A stretch of 64,000 nt of DNA from Nitzschia sp. pyKryTriq1 (Eukaryota; Bacillariophyta; Bacillariophyceae; Bacillariales; Bacillariaceae), in NCBI GenBank assembly GCA_956465555.1, contig OY101117.1, positions 2,790,001 to 2,854,000 on the forward strand. The letters run 5' to 3'. Positions 3,579 through 30,925 of this stretch are shown here, piece by piece (the stretch's first letter is position 1; every line of letters starts with the position of its first letter). Made by a program: the position numbers and the translations under genes. Under the pieces are notes generated by a model that saw nothing but the letters and a program-made list of their open reading frames with translations, was not told the origin of the DNA and did no database searches.

Positions 3579-4241
3579 ATACTACTCTAGAGAGAGTAGA
3601 CTACTCTACTACTCTAGAGTAGAGTAGAGCTTGCTCGTACCACTGGTGCAGAGAGCTTACTACTCTAGTATCTACTAGTACAACTACTACTACTACTCTA
3701 GAGTACTGTACTACTACTGTACTACTACTCTACTCTAGTACTGTAGAGCTAGCTCCTACTGCAAAAGGACCGTTCAGGTACTGGTACTCTCTACGGTACT
3801 TGTAGTAGAGTAGATGATAGAGACAACACGGCAACTACCGTACCGGGATAGGAAAACCTTGGAAATTGTGTCAACAATCATTGTAGTCGAAGATACGAAT
3901 CACAGTAGTCTAAAACATGTACAGGTCTACGTGTTTTGGTACTTATGGTCTGAATCGGGGGTTCTCACCCCGGTTGCGGGCGCCGTGACGAAGCGATAGG
4001 ACACAGACCGTCTACCAGTCTACCAGGGGGAGCGAGACAACTGATGCATGACCCACTGCGGGGGGAGTGAACAGACCCATCTGCGTATGCGTTCGTACTG
4101 TATGTATCATTTTTGTCTTCATTGACCATTGAACATGAGATTATTGTTCTCCTCTCAGGGGATACAGCCTTACGACGCCTAGAAACACAGGGCAGGTGCA
4201 GAGATCTTGAAATTCAGGCGGATCGACAACATCGCTAGCGT
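3579..4241. repeat. Gene-free spacer with CTAGAG-rich simple repeat
   Basis: About 3579-3810 is a low-complexity mix of CTACTCTAGAG, AGTAGAG and TACTACTA words, many of them palindromic around CTCTAGAG or ACTAGT. The same vocabulary recurs near 27100, 32330, 41650 and 55130. The remainder to 4241 has no convincing gene; a 61-codon frame at 3814 has no recognisable content. It is the 3' flank of the transposase and the upstream region of HCF101. Confidence 0.6.
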
Positions 4242-6420
4242 TTGAGGCTGATGAGATCGAAACTCCAAAATCTTCCTCGTCGGTGGAGGGGCAACCTTCC
4301 AGACGCCCTTCCAGGCGCCCTTCCCTCTCTTCGAATGAGGAATTTTCATTTCATGGGAATAATTTCGTCATTTCCGAGTCCTATCAGGTATCCTTCTTTT
4401 GATCCTTCTTCCGGGCGACGAACTGATGGTTTTCTGCATTCACAACGACGACTTTTCCATAGAATACCTGGTACATCGACTCGCGACATGGCGGACATTG
4501 AGGATCGAGTGAGTTCCCACGTTGGTGTGTCCGTCAAGGATCCCGAAATCAACTTGCCCCTGAAAGAACTGGGATGGGTGAACAGGCGCCTCGCTGTATC
4601 GAAAGATGGGACCGTTCAGCTCCTGCTGAAAGTTCCGACCCTTCTACATCCCTCGCTCGATCAGCTGAAAGAACTTGTGAAGGATGCAGCTGAAAAAGAA
4701 ATCAAGATATGTCTTTCAGAAAAAGGGTTGACTGATGCTGCAGGAAGCACAATGGTAAACGTCGAAGCCATTGCCAACAAACCGATTCCATTTGCAAGCG
4801 GGGGGGGCGAAGATCCTGCCGAGATTGAATCAAGACTCGGACCCGGTCTTGTCAGTGTGGCTCATTGTTTGGCGGTGTACAGTTGCAAAGTGAGTGGGTT
4901 GACTGCTACTCGTATGTCGCCGTTTTTTGGGTCGCGTCTATGTGCTTCTAAAAATTGTTCGTATCGTCAATATTAGGGTGGCGTGGGAAAATCGACCGTG
5001 GCGGTAAATTTGGCGTACGAACTTGCCCGACTCGGAGGAAGAGTGGGATTGCTTGACCTTGACGTGTATGGGCCATCGCTTCCCGTTCTCGTCAAACCTG
5101 ACGATCTTTCCGTTAGGGGATCTCCTCTCGGTAAAGGTATGGTATACCCAATTGAACACAAGGGAGTCAAGCTTTTGTCTCTTGGGTATGTATCTTCCAA
5201 GGTACGTATTCGCTGATCCTCCACCGACATTACTTCATCGACGCCCATTATCTTTACACAACAACATTCAAATAATAAATGACTGTGCTATACAGAGTGG
5301 TGTTCCCGGTAGTGGCCAGGATGGTGGTGCCGCTGTGCTGCGTGGTCCCATGGCGGGGAAAGTTGTAACACAATTGTGAGTTTAATAGTACCAGGATGAT
5401 TCGAACCGGGCAATGCGCGACCTTTGGTTTCTCACCCGCTGAAAAGATTGAAAGGGACGGATTGGGGGGACCTTGATGTACTCATTTTGGATATGCCACC
5501 TGGAACCGGAGACGTACAACTCACATTGTTGCAAGATCTTGATCTGAGTGGGGCTGTGGGAGTGACAACGCCATCCAAGCTGGCAATCGCCGATGCTCGG
5601 AAAGGTATTGCAATGTTTTCAGAATTGGGCGTTCCGACAATCGCCATGGTCGAGAACATGTCATATTTCGAGGTAAGTAATGCGGTTTCTCATGTGCCCA
5701 TTCATAAGTCTGCGCTCCTCACCTCAGAGACTATGCGCTCCTCACATTCAGTGCGAAGGTGGCACAAAGCACTATCCGTTTGGGAAGGGCTTTAAGACCT
5801 TTATGGAGGACGTTGAGATCGGGAACATGAACAGAGAAAATGTGTGTCAGTTGCCAATTTCGTCCGCAGCAAATGATGCGAATGATGTAGGTATCCCTTT
5901 GAGTTTGTCGAGACCTGAGGCAGCTAGAAGTGAGTTGGAGGCTTTGTCACGGCTCGCTCGAATTGTATCGAAGGAGCTATTGACGTTACCCTTTCGACCG
6001 GAGAACAGCAGCGGCTCAGTATCGTTTGAGGACAACTCCGAGACGTTTGAGCTTTCGTCCATTCAACTCAGTTTGGATGGTGATGCCTTCTTGATTCGTG
6101 CATTTTCAGAGAACGGAGCCGTGCAAAAGCGTTTCCCCCCGAAAGATCTACGACGTCGAGACCCAAAGACGGGTTCGATACTCGAAGAGTTAAGGGAGGA
6201 GGAGGACAAACCTCCTGTGAAGTCAAAGCTTGGGATGGTGGAAATTCACCGCGCAGGTGCCATGAAAGATACCGGCAAGGATGTTCCTGAAAGTGTGGCG
6301 AAGAAATCAAAGGTTGGATACGAAGTTACCTGGAGTGATGGTGCCAAGTACATTTACTCAAAACGAGCCATCGTGCTGGCTGCTGGAGGCAAGGTTGATA
6401 AGCAGCAGATTCATGAGTAA
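4242..6420 (+). CDS. HCF101: HCF101/MRP-family Fe-S cluster carrier P-loop ATPase
   Basis: Five exons, 615 aa: 4242-4889, 4977-5201, 5296-5375, 5447-5672 and 5752-6420, with GT-AG introns of 87, 94, 71 and 79 bp. The joins restore family sequence each time, for example CKGGVGKST across the first junction and TQLLKGTDWGDLD across the third. Domains in order: a DUF59/MIP18-type domain (about 85-180), an Mrp/NBP35 ATPase with the deviant Walker A CKGGVGKST, LDLDVYGPSLP, VLILDMPPGTGD and VVENMSYFE...CEGGTKHYPFGKG, then a C-terminal DUF971 domain (VTWSDGAKYIY). This three-domain order is typical of HCF101, which assembles or transfers 4Fe-4S clusters (photosystem I in plants). The 80-residue leader is Arg-rich and gives no clear bipartite plastid signal, so a mitochondrial location is possible. 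A second in-frame Met lies at 4350. Confidence 0.92.
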
Positions 6421-6824
6421 CCCGGCAGTTGAAGCGAATGAATTGGTACATGTTGTAGAACTACAAAGTGCTCTACCGTGGAAGTAATCCAATTTAATTG
6501 CGAAGGGGTGTAGCCTTTTATTCTACTATACATTTACACATCTAAACCCGCAGGTGTCTTGGCAGGGTGACAGTCGCTGTCCAGGATACCCAAGTCTTTC
6601 AATCAAAAATTAGGGTGGTGAAAGTAATTAAATTGCGAATGCCTCGCACATAGCGACATTGCCATGCCAATCGAGATCCGATTGGTGGAATGAATGAATC
6701 AACAAGAATGGTCGTAACATAGTATGCCCAACCCGAGCAGAGCTTCTGCAACAGGCTTTAAAGATAGCGCGCGCGAGAGAGATGAGTTTCATAGATGTGC
6801 GTGCATTGAAACCGAATCATCTCT
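6421..6824. other. Spacer between convergent genes
   Basis: About 400 bp between the HCF101 stop and the stop of the minus-strand CCCH gene. It holds the two 3' UTRs, including a short GCGCGCGAGAGA purine run near 6767. I see no gene or RNA in it. Confidence 0.5.
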
Positions 6825-19500: not shown

Positions 19501-22500
19501 TTGCATCATCAAAGATACCCGCTGCAGCACGTCTCGTTCCGAACGTCCAACTTCTGCATCAATTCGAGAGTGCAAAGCTGGAATGCAGAAAAATGTGAGC
19601 TCTTAATATGTCCCATGAAATTGCAAATCGAAAAACGAAACTCACTCACCAGAGTATAGCCCTATGTCATGAGCAAGGACACGTAGGTGCCTGAGGTTGG
19701 ATCCGCTGAGAAGAGCATGCGTTCGAAAGTTGTTGATTGCGAAAAGGCACGAGAAACGGTCTTTCTTTGACTTGTCGCCGTACAAGTCTTCAATTCGAAA
19801 ATCTTCTTTCAACGACAATGATATCTGGTCCACGTTCAGAGAAATGCTGAGACTCGTTGATTGCGACTTCTCAACAGACTTTTCAACCTCCGCTGATGAC
19901 TGGTCTGAAGAAGCCGGAGGTTTGGCGAAGTCTACCATGTCAAGGACAGTTGTAAGCTCCGTCTTTGTCAAGTCGACAATAATTTCGGGGATACTAAACC
20001 TAACAACCGCGTCACTCTTTTCTGCGTCTGTGACCATTGCGATTTGAGGGTCGGTGCCTCTAAGATTTTTCCGCGAATCGGCATCAACATCATGGAGTTT
20101 CGAGAACAGCAAGCGATCAATCTTCAGCTCCTCGTCTTCATCCTCTTGACGTGCCTTAAACGAAGATATTGCTGGGACAATAGGAAAGGTTTCTCTACCG
20201 ATGGTACCGTCCTTTGATGATGGAAGCTTCTTCAAGTATTCGAGGGTTATTGGGATGTAAGGATTGACTTCTGTTCGGCCCTTCAAAAGTATAAAGTCTG
20301 TACGCTGCATTGTCGCACCTACAGATACTTTGTCGCCGACTGGAGCACAGGCAAACATTAGCATGTGGTAAAAGTTGAATTTCGCACACGATTCCAGATC
20401 CTTTTCGGTTGTTTCAGCATCCCCTTTGCTCCACTGGAAGTCGATTGTGTCCAGAGTAAGACCCAAAAAGGCATCTCGCGCCTGAACATTGTGCAGCGTT
20501 TCCCCGCATCGGTTGAACAAGGGTGCAGTTGACAGTCTTTTCCGTAGAGGTATCGTAACGACGAGAGAAGGGCAGTTACAAGCGAAAGATATCTGTGCAT
20601 CGGAAGAGTCTTTGGGTTCCACTCTGTGCGGAACATTGCAGCCTCCCGTAGTCTTTATGGATTGAGCCGTGAACTTTGTCAGGTTCTCCAGGGACCTCTG
20701 CCGGACCATGACCTCAATAGGTAACAGCGTAATATTGCAGTCAATCAACTTTGTACTTTTGTGCTCCTTTGATAGCTGGACGTGCAGAGCAATGCAGGGG
20801 GCTTGGGATACCATAAGTTCGCTTTCGTACTCATCACCATCCGTTGATCCAAAACTGAGCAGACTTCCAATGTCAATTGTACCAGGGCCCTTGCCCTTAG
20901 GACTCACGGTATCCAGCTGCGCATCTTCGATCTCAAAATGAGCGACGCTACACGTGAGCTCCGATCGACGACGGCCTGAGGACAAGGAGACATTCAAGCC
21001 GTCCATGGTAAGTAAGACGTATTCTTGGGGTACAGCATAGTGTTGCTGACGCTGCGAAAAATCCCGAAAATTGATTTTAATACATCCAGCGAGAAGATTA
21101 AGACGGACTTTTGTATGGACAGAATTGCCACTGCCACCGTCATCTGATGATTCATCATCCATCATGAGTACACTCTCCTTGAGCGTCGACGCAGCGTTGT
21201 AAAAGCTTTGATCATTCGCATCGAAAAACACGTCAAACGTCATGGCATCATCTTCTTCCAACGCATCCACATCATCCATGTAGGCATGGCTCGGCACCAA
21301 AATACCTCCCCGCAATTGATTATTCTCCGCCAGGTGATATGCCTCGCGATACTGTTTCATTATACCCGTAATGGCCTTGAGATCTTCACGGTCCGTTTCT
21401 TCGTCAGTACTAGTCATAGCAAACAAGGGATTTTTCAAACGCGAAGAAGAATTGTGTGCGGCCATCATCATCGCTTGCGACAATGGATGAATACCAGAAC
21501 TGTCGGATCCTTGGTCACTTTGCGCCAGACCGTCTGCCACCGTTTGAAGGTAGCGTATCGAGGACTGATCCAATGAAAAATTCAATTGATGATTGAGACT
21601 GACTTCAATGTCCTGGCTAATGTTGCGTGACGACTTGCTTGCGTTTTTGTTTTGTTGTTTAGAGGAGGTGACGGAGGACGAATACTCCATCATCCGGAAA
21701 AAGACACGTCCACTACCCTTTGCCATCGCCAAGACCGTCGATCGAGGATCATCGCCCTCTTCGCCGGTATGTATTGTAATATCCGATAATTCCAGGCTTT
21801 TGTTGAGTATTGTTTTGTACGCTGCAGATGCAATACTCTGCTCTACATCCAAGTCCTTGTAAGTCATGGAAGATAGTTTGACCTGCACCCACGTTTCTTT
21901 GTGACACATCTTGACGTTAATATTCGAAAGTTTCAAAGTCATTCGCAAGGACGCCAGTGCCGCGTCGACATATGATCCAATCATGGTGCGAGGATTATCA
22001 TCCGTCGTCATTTCCCCCTCGTCAGGAGAAGTCGTAGACGGTGTGGCTGGTGTCTGCCGTTCACTCGGATCCAGAGGCACCAACTCCAAGTCGACCCCAT
22101 GAACATGGATTTCGGCCACCAAGGAAACCGCTGGTAACGACGATTCCGCTGTGGTTCCACCTCCTAGCTTCATGGCGCGCCATGCCAAGCTCGATCTCGT
22201 GACAGGTCTCACCGTGTCGTCGTTTTGAGACGAAGAAGGATCCGAATAAGAAGCGACATGATTCTCACGAAGTGACAAGCAAATTTCCAGACGTTGTACG
22301 CTCGCTTTCCGGATCGAAAACGCGGAACCACTGCTTGCCAGTCGTTCCGATAAATATTCCGCATTCAAACTGACGTCCTTCAAGATGTACTTTCCTTCCT
22401 GCAACGAAAATTCTATGGAATCGTGTAATTTCTGTGTGGCCGAGGCATCCAGGTAGGGACCCAGAACACGCCGCATCAAGAAAGCGTATAAACGCTGTTT

Positions 22501-22512
22501 CCACTGAATCAT
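16553..22512 (-). CDS. ATG2: ATG2 autophagy lipid-transfer protein
   Basis: Three minus-strand exons, 22512-19650, 19577-17647 and 17566-16553, with GT-AG introns of 72 and 80 bp, encode 1,935 aa, about the size of human ATG2. The N-terminus is a chorein-type bridge start (WKQRLYAFLMRRVLGPYLDAS, then YILKDVSLNAEYLSERL). The middle is a long beta-rich rod. The last exon carries the ATG2 C-terminal region: RVKPWKLKVDYIPQKIDVGA, then LREGSIVELINISPIDGM, FEPISDVGQGLSDLVVLP and RAMSKGVKSLAETVTFQAL. ATG2 moves phospholipids from the ER to the growing phagophore and works with WIPI/Atg18 and Atg9. Splice joins restore frame exactly (GLYS-A-LHSRID and LMLK-MITWKP). Divergent from the hydroxylase/glycosyltransferase gene, with a 727-bp spacer. 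Confidence 0.9.
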
Positions 22513-23239: not shown

Positions 23240-25357
23240 ATGAGTGACCAGACAACGATTACAAGTACCAGTAATATCTTGAAGGGCTGGGCGCCGCTGA
23301 CCACTCGATTGTTGGAACAAGGTGGATCGTCTGCTTGGAATGTCATCGATGGCGCCGTGGGAGAGCATGTCTGCACAGGTGTACAGCAGGAACTTGTACA
23401 GTCGAAAGTTTTTGACAAGCTCATGCCGTCACGCACAAAAGGAGAAGTTGAAATCAATCAACTCATGACGCTGCTCATGGTGCAGGGGGCAGCGTCACCA
23501 TCTTCACCATCATCATCGCTGCCTCCAATGACGATGATTCGAGGTGACAAGAGCATTTTCTTGTCGCGAGAAACTCGAAGCAATACACGCTTCCGAGAAC
23601 GACATCCCAACCTCCACCGACTTATCGAGGTGGTTCAAAACACGGTTGTGACACACTTATCCTCTACCACTACCGGTATGCATCTAAACACTGCCCAAAC
23701 GTCAGTGCAGCTTGCCGTGTATCCAGGCGATGGAACGAGTGGTTACGTGCGACATTGCGACCGAGGGCAAGGAAATTGTCAACACGAAAATTGCGGTGAC
23801 GTCGCTGATGATGATGGTGATAATCCTGTAGGGCGTCTCATCACTGCCATTTACTATTTGACGGATCACGACTGGAGTGCGACAGATGACGGTGGCGCTC
23901 TTCGAGTATTTTCGTCGTCACAAACCAATCAAAGCAACGACATTGTTCCCTACCGTGATCGCCTCGTCGTCTTTCGATCGGATGGCGTAGAACACCAAGT
24001 CCTTCCTAGTTTACGGCGTTCGCGGACTGCTATTACTATGTGGTTTTATGGGAGACTCCTTCCGTCCAGTGTAACAACGACATCGCCTCCAAAAGAAGAA
24101 ACAATCAAGGCTGTAACTTCCGAAGAGCCAACTATCATTGAAAGTTCGGGGTCTTTTTCTTCCAGCCTGCTTGGTCCACCACCATTGCCAGTGTCTCCTG
24201 TGCAAACAGATGGAAGTGATAGTACCACCACCACCACCACCACCACCACCACGATGACCACCACCACTGTGACAATATTTGTCGGTATTTCAAGCTACCG
24301 AGACTCCGAAATTGTACCCACCCTTCGATCACTCTTTACTCAAGCTCAACGTCCAAGCCGTATCTCAGTGGGTCTTGTGCTTCAACTGGACGATAATGAC
24401 GATAATGATAAGAATATCTGGAGACAGATTCAAGAAATTACAAAAGCGTACCCAGATCAAGTTCGATGTCTTCGAATGTCGGCGAAAGACGCTTCGGGTC
24501 CGTGCTATGCTCGGGCGCTTTGTCAATCGTTACATCGCGGGGAGGATTATTTCTTACAAATCGACTCGCACATGCGAGTCCGAAAAAACTGGGATACCTA
24601 TCTCGTGGATGTACATTCTCAAGTCGTGACTAAGAAGAAGAACCATCGAGTAATTCTGACGACTTATCCCGTGGGGTATAACCTACCCAACAAGATACCC
24701 ATCGAAACACGGGGTACGGTCCTAGTCCCTTGGAAGTTTGACGAGTCTGGTTTCTTGAGACAACGTGGTCGGTTGATGCTACCTCGTTCCGATCCAGTCC
24801 CCTGCTATTTGATTGCCGCTGGCTTTTTCTTTGGACCGGCTCGAATGATCCAGGAAGTTCCGTACGATCCTACTTTGCACCAACTCTTTTTTGGAGAAGA
24901 ATTGAGCATGGCTGTCAGATTCTTTACCCACGGTTACGACTGCTTGGCTCCACCCGAAACAGTATGCTACCACTTGTGGAGTAGGGCCCATCGGCCAACC
25001 CAACAGCCCATGTCCTCTCGAGAAAAGAAGCAGAGAGAGATGTCTTGGAATATAGTGCGGCAACAGTTGATGGGTGTGAACGAATCATCATCTTTTCAAT
25101 CACAACCACACTACTATGGACTTGGTACACTACGGAGCGTGCCAGACTTTGCGAAGGCACTGGGAGTGGATTTCGCCTCTCGGATGTTTCTCAAGGATGG
25201 CGTAGAAAATGGGACCTTATCCAGTCAGGAGTTTGTTCCAGATCAATCACCCGAGCTCTATCCACAGGATAGCTTGGAACACAAAGTTGCTACTCTTGAC
25301 CTCAATACCCGGCGAATGATATCAAGATTCTTACCCGGGGGACTACCGATGGGCTAG
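23240..25357 (+). CDS. Prolyl 4-hydroxylase / GT60 GlcNAc-transferase fusion (Skp1-modifying type)
   Basis: 705 aa, single exon. Residues about 100-272 are a 2-oxoglutarate/Fe(II) prolyl hydroxylase of the PhyA/EGLN type: HCD (H172, D174) in GYVRHCDRGQ, ITAIYYLTDHDW, GGALRVF, RLVVFRSDGVEHQVLPS with distal H252, and R262 in SRTAITMWFYG for 2-oxoglutarate. A disordered linker with a 10-Thr run (ACC repeat) spans about 273-343. Residues about 344-650 are a GlcNAc-transferase domain of the GT60/PF11397 type: IFVGISSYRDSEIVPTLRSL, DASGPCYARALCQSL, and the metal motif DSH (442-444) in YFLQIDSHMRVRKNWD. In Dictyostelium and Toxoplasma, Skp1 is hydroxylated on proline by PhyA and then capped with GlcNAc by Gnt1. 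Here both activities sit in one chain. No signal peptide, consistent with cytosolic Skp1 as substrate. Confidence 0.88.
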   Translation: MSDQTTITSTSNILKGWAPLTTRLLEQGGSSAWNVIDGAVGEHVCTGVQQELVQSKVFDKLMPSRTKGEVEINQLMTLLMVQGAASPSSPSSSLPPMTMIRGDKSIFLSRETRSNTRFRERHPNLHRLIEVVQNTVVTHLSSTTTGMHLNTAQTSVQLAVYPGDGTSGYVRHCDRGQGNCQHENCGDVADDDGDNPVGRLITAIYYLTDHDWSATDDGGALRVFSSSQTNQSNDIVPYRDRLVVFRSDGVEHQVLPSLRRSRTAITMWFYGRLLPSSVTTTSPPKEETIKAVTSEEPTIIESSGSFSSSLLGPPPLPVSPVQTDGSDSTTTTTTTTTTMTTTTVTIFVGISSYRDSEIVPTLRSLFTQAQRPSRISVGLVLQLDDNDDNDKNIWRQIQEITKAYPDQVRCLRMSAKDASGPCYARALCQSLHRGEDYFLQIDSHMRVRKNWDTYLVDVHSQVVTKKKNHRVILTTYPVGYNLPNKIPIETRGTVLVPWKFDESGFLRQRGRLMLPRSDPVPCYLIAAGFFFGPARMIQEVPYDPTLHQLFFGEELSMAVRFFTHGYDCLAPPETVCYHLWSRAHRPTQQPMSSREKKQREMSWNIVRQQLMGVNESSSFQSQPHYYGLGTLRSVPDFAKALGVDFASRMFLKDGVENGTLSSQEFVPDQSPELYPQDSLEHKVATLDLNTRRMISRFLPGGLPMG

Positions 25358-25839
25358 TATTGTATTTTTGTAGCGAAACTAGTCCTCTTCTACTCGAGAG
25401 CTAGTGTGCGTATGTAGCATTCCTGTGATGGTACGTGAAGTACAGGTAGTAAAAATAGCCGATGATGAGCATGCCGACTGTGCTGTGTGGGCGTCGTACC
25501 TGTATGGGGTGGGGTAAAAGAAGTCGTATGGGTCGTTCCATTGGGAGGGAATTTTTCTCCCAATATTCGCGAATCATCATCATCATCATCATCGCGAACG
25601 GATTATTATTCTGCATTTTGCATTCGCGATCTTCTCGCGATGAGCGAGATGACCATGACGATGCGAGACGGAGAGACAAGAACAACGCATGGTATCTGTT
25701 TTACGAGTAGACACAAAAAAGACGACCCAAGAACGCAAAGAACAGCTACTGATAGGAGTATCACGAAGCTGTGTTATCTCTTCGACTTCAAATTTGGCAG
25801 GCTTCAAAAATAACGGTTCTCGGTACAAATCAAGCAAAG
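25358..25839. other. Short spacer before the RDD gene
   Basis: About 480 bp between same-strand genes. It contains an ATCATCATCATCATCATCG microsatellite near 25575-25592. Small frames on both strands show nothing recognisable. The RDD frame is open from 25771 but its first ATG is at 25840. Confidence 0.45.
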
Positions 25840-27042
25840 ATGCATCCGATCTCCGGCGTCGTCAACCATATTATCGAGGTGGCGGATATCGAAGGCGTCG
25901 TGCGAAAAATCGACGTGAATGATGTCGTCGAACGGATTGATGTTGACAAATTGGTCCAGCGGATCGATATGAACACTGTTCTATCGCGTATCGACTGGGA
26001 TAAGCAGCTCGGAAGAATTGACTTTGATGCCATTTTACGACGGGTCGATACCAGCTCCATTGTGGCTCGGAGCTCGACGGGAATGTTCACCACCTTTTTG
26101 GACACATTGAGAACTCAGGTCACTATGATTGATCTTTATCTTCGGATTGTTGCCAGATGTCGAATTTGGCGCGAGCAGCACCGTCAGAGTTGCTACTTGC
26201 CCCCAGCACCAGGTCACCATCGCCAGAGGGACGACCGTCGTTTGTACCCTAGAGGTCGGGCGAACAAAGCAGTTGCAGTACAAGGTCGTTACTGCGGATT
26301 TGTCAGCAAAACAATTTCGATCTTGATTGATATATTTTCCATTGCATTGCTATTTGGCATGCTATTCCGCCTGATTGAGTGGTGTCTAATATTTTTCCTG
26401 GGCAATAGTCACGACGAGGCCGAGAACAAAACAAAAGATTTTCAGCGGGAGGGAAACATGTTGATGTTGGTCGTGTACTGCTTTCTTTGGTTTTTCTATT
26501 TCTTTATTTCGGTTGCCTTGGCTGGGCAGACGTTCGGAATGGCTGTGGTGGGTCTGAAGGTCTGTGATTGCCGTCGTTCGAGTCCATACTCAACAGTGTC
26601 CATACAACAAGCCTTCATCAGAACGTGCCTTTTGCCAGTTACGCTGACTCTATTTCCGCCACTTGGAGTCATTGGTTTTGTTCGTAGAGATGGACGCATG
26701 TTGCATGATTTGGTCGCCAATACTGGCATGATCTACCTTTGGGACGCTGAACTCGCGAAAGCTCGTTATGAAGTCCTTCGAGAAGAACAAGGATCTGTAG
26801 TAAGCGATGGCGATGGAACTGATGAGTTGGATGAGCTTCTTGAGAATGAGTACGACGATGACCGTCAGGTCAATAACGGGGGGAACTTTCAAGGTCAGGA
26901 AGTTATTTGGCGACGGAATCGTGGTCCAAGACCTCAGTCCAACGCGGGATCGTCATCGATCCAAACTGGCTATTCGACATTTCCCTCAAACAGCCGCACA
27001 GATGAGAGGGTCGCTCGGCCAGGATGCTGCCACATAGTTTAG
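25840..27042 (+). CDS. RDD-family membrane protein with N-terminal VxRID repeats
   Basis: 400 aa from the ATG at 25840 (MHPISGVV), single exon. Residues about 10-72 are back-to-back 10-11-residue repeats of the form V-x-x-[RK]-I-D (VVRKID, VVERID, LVQRID, VLSRID, LGRID, LRRVD), then SSTGMFTTFLDTLRTQ. An RDD domain follows (about 165-300), with three or four membrane helices (KTISILIDIFSIALLFGM, LMLVVYCFLWFFYFFISV) and the motifs GQTFGMAVVGLKV and DGRMLHDLVANTGMIYLWD. This combination of ID repeats followed by an RDD domain is, from memory, characteristic of actinobacterial RDD proteins. The C-terminal tail is acidic and disordered and ends CCHIV, a possible CaaX-like lipidation site. RDD proteins are poorly understood; some have been linked to ion transport. 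Confidence 0.8.
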   Translation: MHPISGVVNHIIEVADIEGVVRKIDVNDVVERIDVDKLVQRIDMNTVLSRIDWDKQLGRIDFDAILRRVDTSSIVARSSTGMFTTFLDTLRTQVTMIDLYLRIVARCRIWREQHRQSCYLPPAPGHHRQRDDRRLYPRGRANKAVAVQGRYCGFVSKTISILIDIFSIALLFGMLFRLIEWCLIFFLGNSHDEAENKTKDFQREGNMLMLVVYCFLWFFYFFISVALAGQTFGMAVVGLKVCDCRRSSPYSTVSIQQAFIRTCLLPVTLTLFPPLGVIGFVRRDGRMLHDLVANTGMIYLWDAELAKARYEVLREEQGSVVSDGDGTDELDELLENEYDDDRQVNNGGNFQGQEVIWRRNRGPRPQSNAGSSSIQTGYSTFPSNSRTDERVARPGCCHIV

Positions 27043-27934: not shown

Positions 27935-30925
27935 ATGGACAACCCTAGTAGCGATATTGTGTCTGGGTTCGATCGAATCTGTTTTGAGTTTGGCGACGAG
28001 GATGCCATTGTACCGGCCCCTAGACGTGCTGGCACGAGTACTGGCATCGATACTTTTGATGATGATGATGGTGATTCTTCCCCGTCATCATCATCTGGCA
28101 CCCCGCCAGTATCATATTTCGAACTCCAGGATTATTCCAAGAATCTAGCCTACCAATTGCGTTGGCGGTTCCGACCGGACTATGTCTTGATGGATTGTAA
28201 AAAAATTGCAGGAGCCGAGGCAGTGGCGACATTGGCGTGTATGCGGATTCGGTGCCCCTTTGTTCCTGTTTCCTGTGAAGACCTTCATCGACCGGGGAGG
28301 CTCAATGTGGTGGTCGATCATTTGCGGGAAAAGGGAAGGAGCCGGTGGGGGCAAGGAATCCAGAACGATAGTATCGCCGTCGTGGCTATTACTGTTTGTG
28401 AGAACGACCTAGATCCGATACTGTCCGTCTTCCAGCAGGCAAATGTGCACCAAATTCTCTACTTGGACGAGACAGGAGGGATCCGAGAGCAAGTCCAGGT
28501 GCCCGACTATCTACCGGCATCCATCAAAGCCGATAAATCATTATCTTCTTCTTCTGCCGAAAAAATGAATGATGATCTCATGGTTCTATTTACTTCTGGC
28601 ACTACTGGTGGAACTCCAAAAGCAGTAGTGGGATCCCATGCCGCGACGTTGCGTCGGATCCAGTGGTTTCACCAGAATTTCGAGTCCAGCCCTCGTGTCA
28701 TTCGCAAAACAGCTCTTACCTTTGTGGATGGAATCACCGAGCTATGGTGCACTCTGCTCGACCGTAATTCAATGTTGGTGACGATACCGCCCATGACTCT
28801 CCAAGCCGAAGGATTAGCAGCGATACTACGTGCCAAACCAACCCAGCTCTTGCTCCTGCCAAGTCAGCTAGGGCAACTATTATTGCTCCCCAAATGTGAG
28901 ACGTTGCAGAGGATTATCATTTCTGGGGAGCAAGCTTCAAGAGTGTCAGTGGAACGGGTGTACTCTCAGTATCCCAATATTCAGCTCATCAATTTGTACG
29001 GACAAACGGAGACGTCGGGAGATGTTCTTTGTGCCGTTCTATCCGACATGGACGACTCGACTGCGTTTCAGGACGATACTGTGGCGGTAGGAAAGCCTAT
29101 TGCCGATACCATTGTACGCATCAATAATCACCAGGAGCTCATCATTTCGGGTTCACAACTTTCCAATGGATATTTGGGTCAGCAGGCTTTTGAATCGTTT
29201 GCCACTGGCGATCTAGGTTTTTACAAGGACGGCAACTACTACGTTAAGGGCCGAATCGACGATGTTGTCAAGTTGCATGGGATTTGGACGTGTCCGATGG
29301 AAATTGAAACAGCCTTTTGCCGCCTGTACCAAACCCAGGAGGCACTTGCCTGCTTTTTCCAGGACGAAGCATACCTTTTATGTCCCGATCACAATGTGTG
29401 TGACCTGTTTTCTCGCGAAGACATGTACCGCCGAGGGAAGCTCCCTTGGAATCTCATCCCTAAGCTCGTTTTTTGCCACAACATCCCCACCAGCCAAAGC
29501 TCGGGAGCTGGAAAGGCCAGTCGCAAGGAGGCTGAAAAGATTGTCGAGCAATTAGTATTGAACTCCTCGCAGCCAGAGTCAATCACAGCACCCAAACCAA
29601 CTTTGTTGTCAATACTGTGCCAGACGTTGAATCTACTAGAGAACGAATTTGACAAGCAAAAATCGTTTGTCGAATTGGGTGGAAATAGTGCCAAGGCGAT
29701 AACGGCCTTGTACCATCTGCGTCTAGCTTTCTCGAGTGCGACTCATTTGACTGCGGTGGATCTTCTAACTGTTGAGGCTATCAACGATCTTGAGCTGATT
29801 CTTACTGGGAAGCAAGAAGTTTCACGAAAGAAACCAAGGACAACTACTGATACGGCCGCCGACACAATCGAATTTGTCCCCAGACCAGCAATGCGGCATT
29901 CGGACAGACACGTTTCGCTGGATTTCATGGCGTGCGTGGATTCGAAGCCACTTATCCATGATGGTTCGATTTATGCTGCATGCCAAGGGGGCGTCATTTT
30001 AAAGTTCTCCCCGAGTGGAAGTGTCGAAGCTTCTCGGCAGTTAACTGGATGGATGATTCAAGCAGATCTTGTGTCAACAACGGACTCTCTAATCGTGTGT
30101 GCGTACAAGCGAAATCTTGACGCTGGTTTAGTCATGGCATTTTCTCTGGATTTGAAAGATGAACAATGGAAAGTGGAACTTGAACTTCCCGTTAAGGCAA
30201 CTCCTCTGCTTGTGGACACTTCGACGCTTTGGGTTACCATGGGCAGCAAACAAAATACAAGCGTTTGTCGTATATCAGTCAAGACAGGTACGGTCTGCGG
30301 TACAAGGATTCACCTTCCCTTTCCATCCATGTCAAAACCAGTATCAAGTAACCATAACATCTTTTACGGATGTTCGTCGTGGGAAGGTGGACTCTTTATC
30401 GTGGGTATCAATGACAAGGTAACGCACTTGTTTGAAGGGGAAGTTGGGCCAGTGAACGGCCGGGACCTAATCAGCAAACCAGATGGCAACATACTTGTAT
30501 CTGACGGCTACGGAGCACTCCACAGCATCAATGCCCACCAGATAGTTATCAAGACGATGCGGCTTTCCTCCACACCGCTAACTACGCCGCTTATTCGAGA
30601 TGATGGGAGTATCGTGGTTGGCTCGACTGACGGGTATTTGTATGCCGTCAACATGGAGACAGAGACAGTATTGTGGAAGTGTGAATGTGGGGCATCTATT
30701 CTTGGAAGACCTGTTTTGTCCCCAAATAATGATGGCACTTTGTCAGTTCGAACAACAGCTGGACACCTCATAATAGTCGATCCCGCCGGGAACATTAAAT
30801 GGAAACAGCGCATGGCCGAGGGCGAGATTTGGGGAGATGCTGAGGTGTATTCTGGAATCTCAGGGGATTTCTTGGTGTTCGGTGCCCGTGACGCTAGAGT
30901 TCATATAATAGCGAAACCTTTCTAG
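27935..30925 (+). CDS. AASDH: AASDH/ACSF4-type adenylation - carrier - PQQ-propeller protein
   Basis: 996 aa, single exon. An AMP-binding (adenylation) domain covers about 1-540, with the P-loop motif VLFTSGTTGGTPKAVVGSH (about 217-236), NLYGQTETSG, GDLGFYKDGNYYVKGRIDD and the terminal Lys region SGAGKASRKE. A carrier domain follows with FVELGGNSAKAI, whose Ser (about 584) is the phosphopantetheine site. From about 650 to the end there are repeated beta-propeller blades (SKPLIHDGSIYAAC, VGSTDGYLYAVNMETETVLW, FLVFGARDARVHI) of the PQQ/quinoprotein type. This architecture is that of animal AASDH (U26, acyl-CoA synthetase family member 4), reported to activate beta-alanine or related substrates, with the true role unsettled. 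Domain order is read directly; substrate is unknown. Confidence 0.88.
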   Translation: MDNPSSDIVSGFDRICFEFGDEDAIVPAPRRAGTSTGIDTFDDDDGDSSPSSSSGTPPVSYFELQDYSKNLAYQLRWRFRPDYVLMDCKKIAGAEAVATLACMRIRCPFVPVSCEDLHRPGRLNVVVDHLREKGRSRWGQGIQNDSIAVVAITVCENDLDPILSVFQQANVHQILYLDETGGIREQVQVPDYLPASIKADKSLSSSSAEKMNDDLMVLFTSGTTGGTPKAVVGSHAATLRRIQWFHQNFESSPRVIRKTALTFVDGITELWCTLLDRNSMLVTIPPMTLQAEGLAAILRAKPTQLLLLPSQLGQLLLLPKCETLQRIIISGEQASRVSVERVYSQYPNIQLINLYGQTETSGDVLCAVLSDMDDSTAFQDDTVAVGKPIADTIVRINNHQELIISGSQLSNGYLGQQAFESFATGDLGFYKDGNYYVKGRIDDVVKLHGIWTCPMEIETAFCRLYQTQEALACFFQDEAYLLCPDHNVCDLFSREDMYRRGKLPWNLIPKLVFCHNIPTSQSSGAGKASRKEAEKIVEQLVLNSSQPESITAPKPTLLSILCQTLNLLENEFDKQKSFVELGGNSAKAITALYHLRLAFSSATHLTAVDLLTVEAINDLELILTGKQEVSRKKPRTTTDTAADTIEFVPRPAMRHSDRHVSLDFMACVDSKPLIHDGSIYAACQGGVILKFSPSGSVEASRQLTGWMIQADLVSTTDSLIVCAYKRNLDAGLVMAFSLDLKDEQWKVELELPVKATPLLVDTSTLWVTMGSKQNTSVCRISVKTGTVCGTRIHLPFPSMSKPVSSNHNIFYGCSSWEGGLFIVGINDKVTHLFEGEVGPVNGRDLISKPDGNILVSDGYGALHSINAHQIVIKTMRLSSTPLTTPLIRDDGSIVVGSTDGYLYAVNMETETVLWKCECGASILGRPVLSPNNDGTLSVRTTAGHLIIVDPAGNIKWKQRMAEGEIWGDAEVYSGISGDFLVFGARDARVHIIAKPF

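Follow-up and report, generated by a model that had tools for sequence, protein, structure and literature searches.

A prolyl hydroxylase fused to a GT60 domain: a candidate dual-function PhyA/Gnt1 enzyme of Skp1 modification

A single open frame in the window (the whole stretch of 64,000 nucleotides analysed here) raises the question of whether two successive steps of cytoplasmic Skp1 modification, prolyl hydroxylation by PhyA and GlcNAc addition by Gnt1, are carried out by one protein. An earlier note, made from the letters of the window, had proposed this fusion and linked it to oxygen control. We followed up the proposal in the window and across the 20 contigs (40.65 Mb) of the genome. The parts of the gene on which the argument rests are as follows.

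23240..25357, + strand: whole fusion gene, 705 aa, with no interrupting intron seen; the frame is also open in a second copy
23645..24052, + strand: catalytic core of a prolyl hydroxylase (EGLN/PHD-type 2OG-Fe(II)), aa 136-271; 5la9 at 1.3e-13, PF13640 at 4.7e-17; H172, D174, H252 and R262
24053..24271, + strand: Thr/Ser-rich low-complexity linker, aa 272-344; the second copy lacks three of the Thr codons
24272..25177, + strand: GT60 GlcNAc-transferase domain, about aa 345-646; PF11397 at 1.4e-64, two six-frame matches; D442-S-H444

Two domains in one open frame

The frame is bounded by ATG 23240 and TAG 25357, and the computed chance of an open frame this long at the local base composition is ~1e-15. 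PF13640 and PF11397 both match within its 705 residues, which places the hydroxylase and GT60 halves in one frame, as the earlier note had read them. Because the frame is uninterrupted, we infer that the gene is a single exon.

The N-terminal part has the hallmarks of a PHD-type oxygenase. PF13640 (2OG-Fe(II) oxygenase) matches aa 157-270, and its sister model PF13661 is also matched (E = 1.7e-9; both Pfam). The closest solved structure is Egl nine homolog 1 (5la9, aa 137-271), which we take to be PHD2, the oxygen sensor of animals. All four proposed active-site residues (H172, D174, H252 and R262) are in place, giving the family match together with the HxD...H and R expected of PhyA/EGLN-type enzymes. 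An oxygenase profile search of the genome returned 52 matches. When 30 of these loci were ranked against the PHD half, the two copies of the fusion gene scored 671 and 669 bits, against 42 bits for the locus in third place. That locus (L025) has a match of 1.6e-4 to prolyl 4-hydroxylases but none better than 0.044 to Egl nine chains; judged by these matches it is not EGLN-like, and on the 30 of 52 matches ranked another PhyA elsewhere in the genome appears unlikely.

Between the domains, residues 271-345 include 22 Thr and 13 Ser among 75 positions, a composition that bears out the Thr-rich linker described before. Beyond it, PF11397 (GlcNAc, GT60) scores 219 bits in two parts, of which aa 394-646 matches best (Pfam; cut-off 21 bits). 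The proposed D442-S-H motif is present at that position, and D442, H444 and a GEE triplet are invariant across all five aligned segments. Tested for other glycosyltransferase families, the C-terminal half matched GT60/PF11397 alone (Pfam, E up to 1). Searched as a single sequence, this half matched no solved structure (E up to 1), and the GT60 profile found two weak matches, the best to the polypeptide GalNAc-transferase 6s22 (3.3e-4). NCBIfam yielded no match at E 0.01, and a scan of viral contigs with the whole fusion yielded one pattern match, to a stretch that is not a relative.

The fusion gene occurs twice in the genome, at C3:2813240-2815357 (the window) and at C1:3957586-3959694, with 99% identity. 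The C1 copy has 2,109 bases including the stop and encodes 702 aa in an open frame; neither copy has an internal stop. Between them are 8 silent and 2 replacement base changes, spread over 9 codons, and the linker of the C1 copy is three Thr codons shorter. The open frame of the second copy, the mostly silent changes and the three missing linker Thr codons together argue for a real coding gene. If three quarters of unselected changes are taken to be replacements, two among 10 is a low count (P about 4e-4, in a rough test on few changes), which suggests that selection maintains the full frame. The same comparison bears on whether two genes have been run together through a mistaken reading, with a hidden intron or separate promoters. 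The low-complexity linker between the halves could be taken to mark such a junction, but this reading is scarcely credible given that both copies have uninterrupted frames, that their 9-base length difference is in-frame and that the changes are mostly silent.

Skp1 as the candidate substrate

Across the genome, PF11397 has 20 matches, which we read as about ten genes, two of them the fusion copies. Hydropathy peaks were compared with those of six GT60 paralogues, leaving aside C1:492509 and C1:1568459; these are peak values and not the output of a dedicated anchor predictor. The peak is 1.25 in both fusion copies (one frame per locus) and 2.36, 2.47, 2.59, 2.06, 2.79 and 1.77 in the paralogues (L001, L002, L005, L006, L007 and L008, respectively), in which the strongest hydrophobic segment lies near the N-terminus in five cases and near the C-terminus in L008. 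The fusion therefore has no strong hydrophobic segment like that of the six paralogues and, by hydropathy, no signal anchor, as expected of the Gnt1 branch. Since this segment is missing and the domain is fused to a hydroxylase, the GT60 half would belong with Gnt1 and not with the Golgi-type GT60 enzymes. It is very improbable that the half is instead a Golgi-type, mucin-like O-GlcNAc-transferase, joined to a hydroxylase and acting on secreted proline-rich proteins: other GT60 genes do exist in this genome, five of the six scored with an N-terminal hydrophobic segment, but the low peak of the fusion and the soluble PHD-type region that comes first in the chain do not fit such an enzyme.

Skp1 itself was found at three genomic places by PF01466 (C1:4274184, C3:3134870 and C4:682730). 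The C1 and C3 genes encode an identical protein with the C-terminal end NITNDFSPEEEAQVREENKWCEEA; the Skp1 at C4 is split across frames and carries NISNDFTPEEEAQVREENKW. The target proline, whose retention had been posed as a check, is kept in all three stretches, as NDFSPEEE in two copies and NDFTPEEE in the third. Five solved Skp1 chains that were aligned read NDFTEEEE, with Glu where Skp1 of this genome has Pro; the best-matching of these Glu-bearing chains are presumably human. We assume that Hyp143 of Dictyostelium and Pro154 of Toxoplasma both lie within the NDF(S/T)PEEE motif. These are the modified Skp1 residues of the two organisms (PMC3515798 and PMC12101541, respectively).

A later enzyme of the pathway also seems to be encoded. 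The GT8 profile PF01501 has nine genome matches, and two of the proteins (L044 and L046) were compared with solved structures. L046, at C2:2544596, matches 6mw5 at 9.3e-34, compared with 1.9e-13 for the best glycogenin; the record is named UDP-galactose:glucoside-Skp1 alpha-D-galactosyltransferase, and we take it to be Gat1 of Pythium. On this match L046 is the Gat1 homologue, and a 173-aa part of it was found at one genomic place only. L044 was rejected as Gat1 because its best solved matches are LgtC-type galactosyltransferases. PF04488 (14 matches; sought for Glt1) and PF00535 (7 matches; sought for PgtA) are family profiles that do not single out a pathway enzyme. Just downstream of the Gat1-like gene, at positions 5928-6761 of the segment C2:2540001-2547000 (L063), is a frame that by eye resembles a retrotransposon RNase H region, flanked by two copies of a repeated stretch (at about 5806 and 6817, also by eye).

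We consider it highly probable that the fusion serves the cytoplasmic pathway of Skp1 modification as a dual-function PhyA/Gnt1 enzyme. The evidence counted for this comprises the two domains, the active-site residues, the Skp1 proline, the Gat1 homologue, the lack of a strong hydrophobic segment, the wide score gap between the fusion copies and the next of the 30 ranked oxygenase loci, and the published fusions of this type. In the proposed mechanism, the N-terminal oxygenase, with O2 and 2-oxoglutarate as co-substrates, would hydroxylate the NDF(S/T)PEEE proline near the Skp1 C-terminus, and the GT60 domain of the same chain would transfer GlcNAc from UDP-GlcNAc onto the resulting hydroxyproline. 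Other enzymes, the last a Gat1-like galactosyltransferase, would lengthen the glycan, which would tune the pairing of Skp1 with F-box proteins. The enzymatic activity, Skp1 as the substrate, a cytoplasmic location and the hand-over of hydroxy-Skp1 between the domains are predictions from sequence. Domain matches do not name a substrate, and PHD relatives in other organisms have other substrates (PMC7864055), so a dual hydroxylase/GlcNAc-transferase acting on other cytosolic proteins, with or instead of Skp1, deserves consideration. We regard this as unlikely, given the proline in each Skp1 stretch found and the homologue of an enzyme named for Skp1 in the same genome. The earlier view of oxygen control as a single-gene trait is too strong, because there are two near-identical gene copies and the later steps need other enzymes.

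Fused enzymes already in print

The earlier note could not say whether such fusions were known in stramenopiles; fused enzymes are in print, and the idea of a PhyA/Gnt1 fusion is not new. A dual-function prolyl 4-hydroxylase/GlcNAc-transferase of the plant pathogen Pythium ultimum is the subject, by its title, of van der Wel, Gas-Pascual and West (2019, Glycobiology 29:705), and PMC9485057 cites that paper for this organism. Further sources describe P. ultimum as a stramenopile (PMC11570480) and its Skp1 as hydroxylated by a PHD-type oxygenase (PMC7864055), list diatoms among the groups with Skp1 pathway-like genes (PMC3515798) and offer 'processive processing' as a possibility for PhyA/Gnt1 fusions (PMC8724618). 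One close comparison, drawn from that title, is with P. ultimum, in which both activities are likewise in one protein with Skp1 as the target, and which shares the stramenopile lineage with the source of the window if the placing by the earlier reader is right; a difference is that both the fusion gene and Skp1 are present here in two near-identical copies. The same fusion is stated for many PHYa genes in PMC6437050. In Dictyostelium and Toxoplasma, PhyA and Gnt1 act in turn on a single Skp1 proline, as the fusion would do, but there they are two proteins and here one. Our literature search, which covered few subscription journals, found no text naming a PhyA/Gnt1 fusion in an alga, although one may well be listed in Table S2 of PMC6437050. 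The fusion opens no new kind of system; the known distribution of fused PhyA/Gnt1 gains a genome in which the gene has two matching copies and Skp1 bears the proline. The apparently intronless gene should be easily expressed, allowing tests of the passage of hydroxy-Skp1 between the active sites of the fusion.

The shared stretch and neighbouring genes

The second copy of the fusion lies in a longer match between contigs. In sampled blocks, C3:2793996-3612244 (window position 3996 onward) is near-identical to C1:3938312-4741679 over about 0.8 Mb, to the ends of both contigs. Five of the six block pairs sampled match (at the window edge, the fusion and Skp1, plus two nearer the contig ends), with identities of the matching pieces mostly between 93.9 and 99.6%, one at 88.7% and two short ones at 79%. 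The block at C3:2640000 has no match to C1 at the offset used, and the block at C3:2789001 is largely unmatched over its initial 5 kb, except for two short pieces. We dropped the idea of a sharp start inside the window: a GT2 pair (C3:2754914/C1:3900779) precedes the start of the long match at C3:2793996, which suggests that the shared stretch extends beyond that point. Within the match, C1 carries an insertion of ~1.2 kb, and a 164-base inverted piece follows the fusion gene.

The shared stretch may be a genuine duplication, represent two haplotypes or come from an assembly join. The fusion and Skp1 are 0.32 Mb apart on both C1 and C3, and two paired GT8 places lie further out (C1:4376739/C3:3241147 and C1:4602270/C3:3460016). 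From this spacing within a near-identical stretch on two contigs, it is conceivable, if doubtful, that enzyme and substrate were duplicated together, doubling the whole O2-sensing front end, with a possible gain in the dosage of oxygen control.

Three further frames lie near the fusion in the window. At 19642-22512 (- strand), a 956-aa frame adjoins it on the opposite strand and has no Pfam match at E 0.001. The frame at 25771-27042 (+ strand) encodes 423 aa with an RDD domain (PF06271, 1.2e-12). The third, at 27935-30925 (+ strand; 996 aa), combines an AMP-binding domain (PF00501, 4.2e-25) with an ACSF4-type beta-propeller region (PF13570, 2.6e-22, below the curated cut-off), and its predicted product looks like a homologue of the beta-alanine-activating enzyme.
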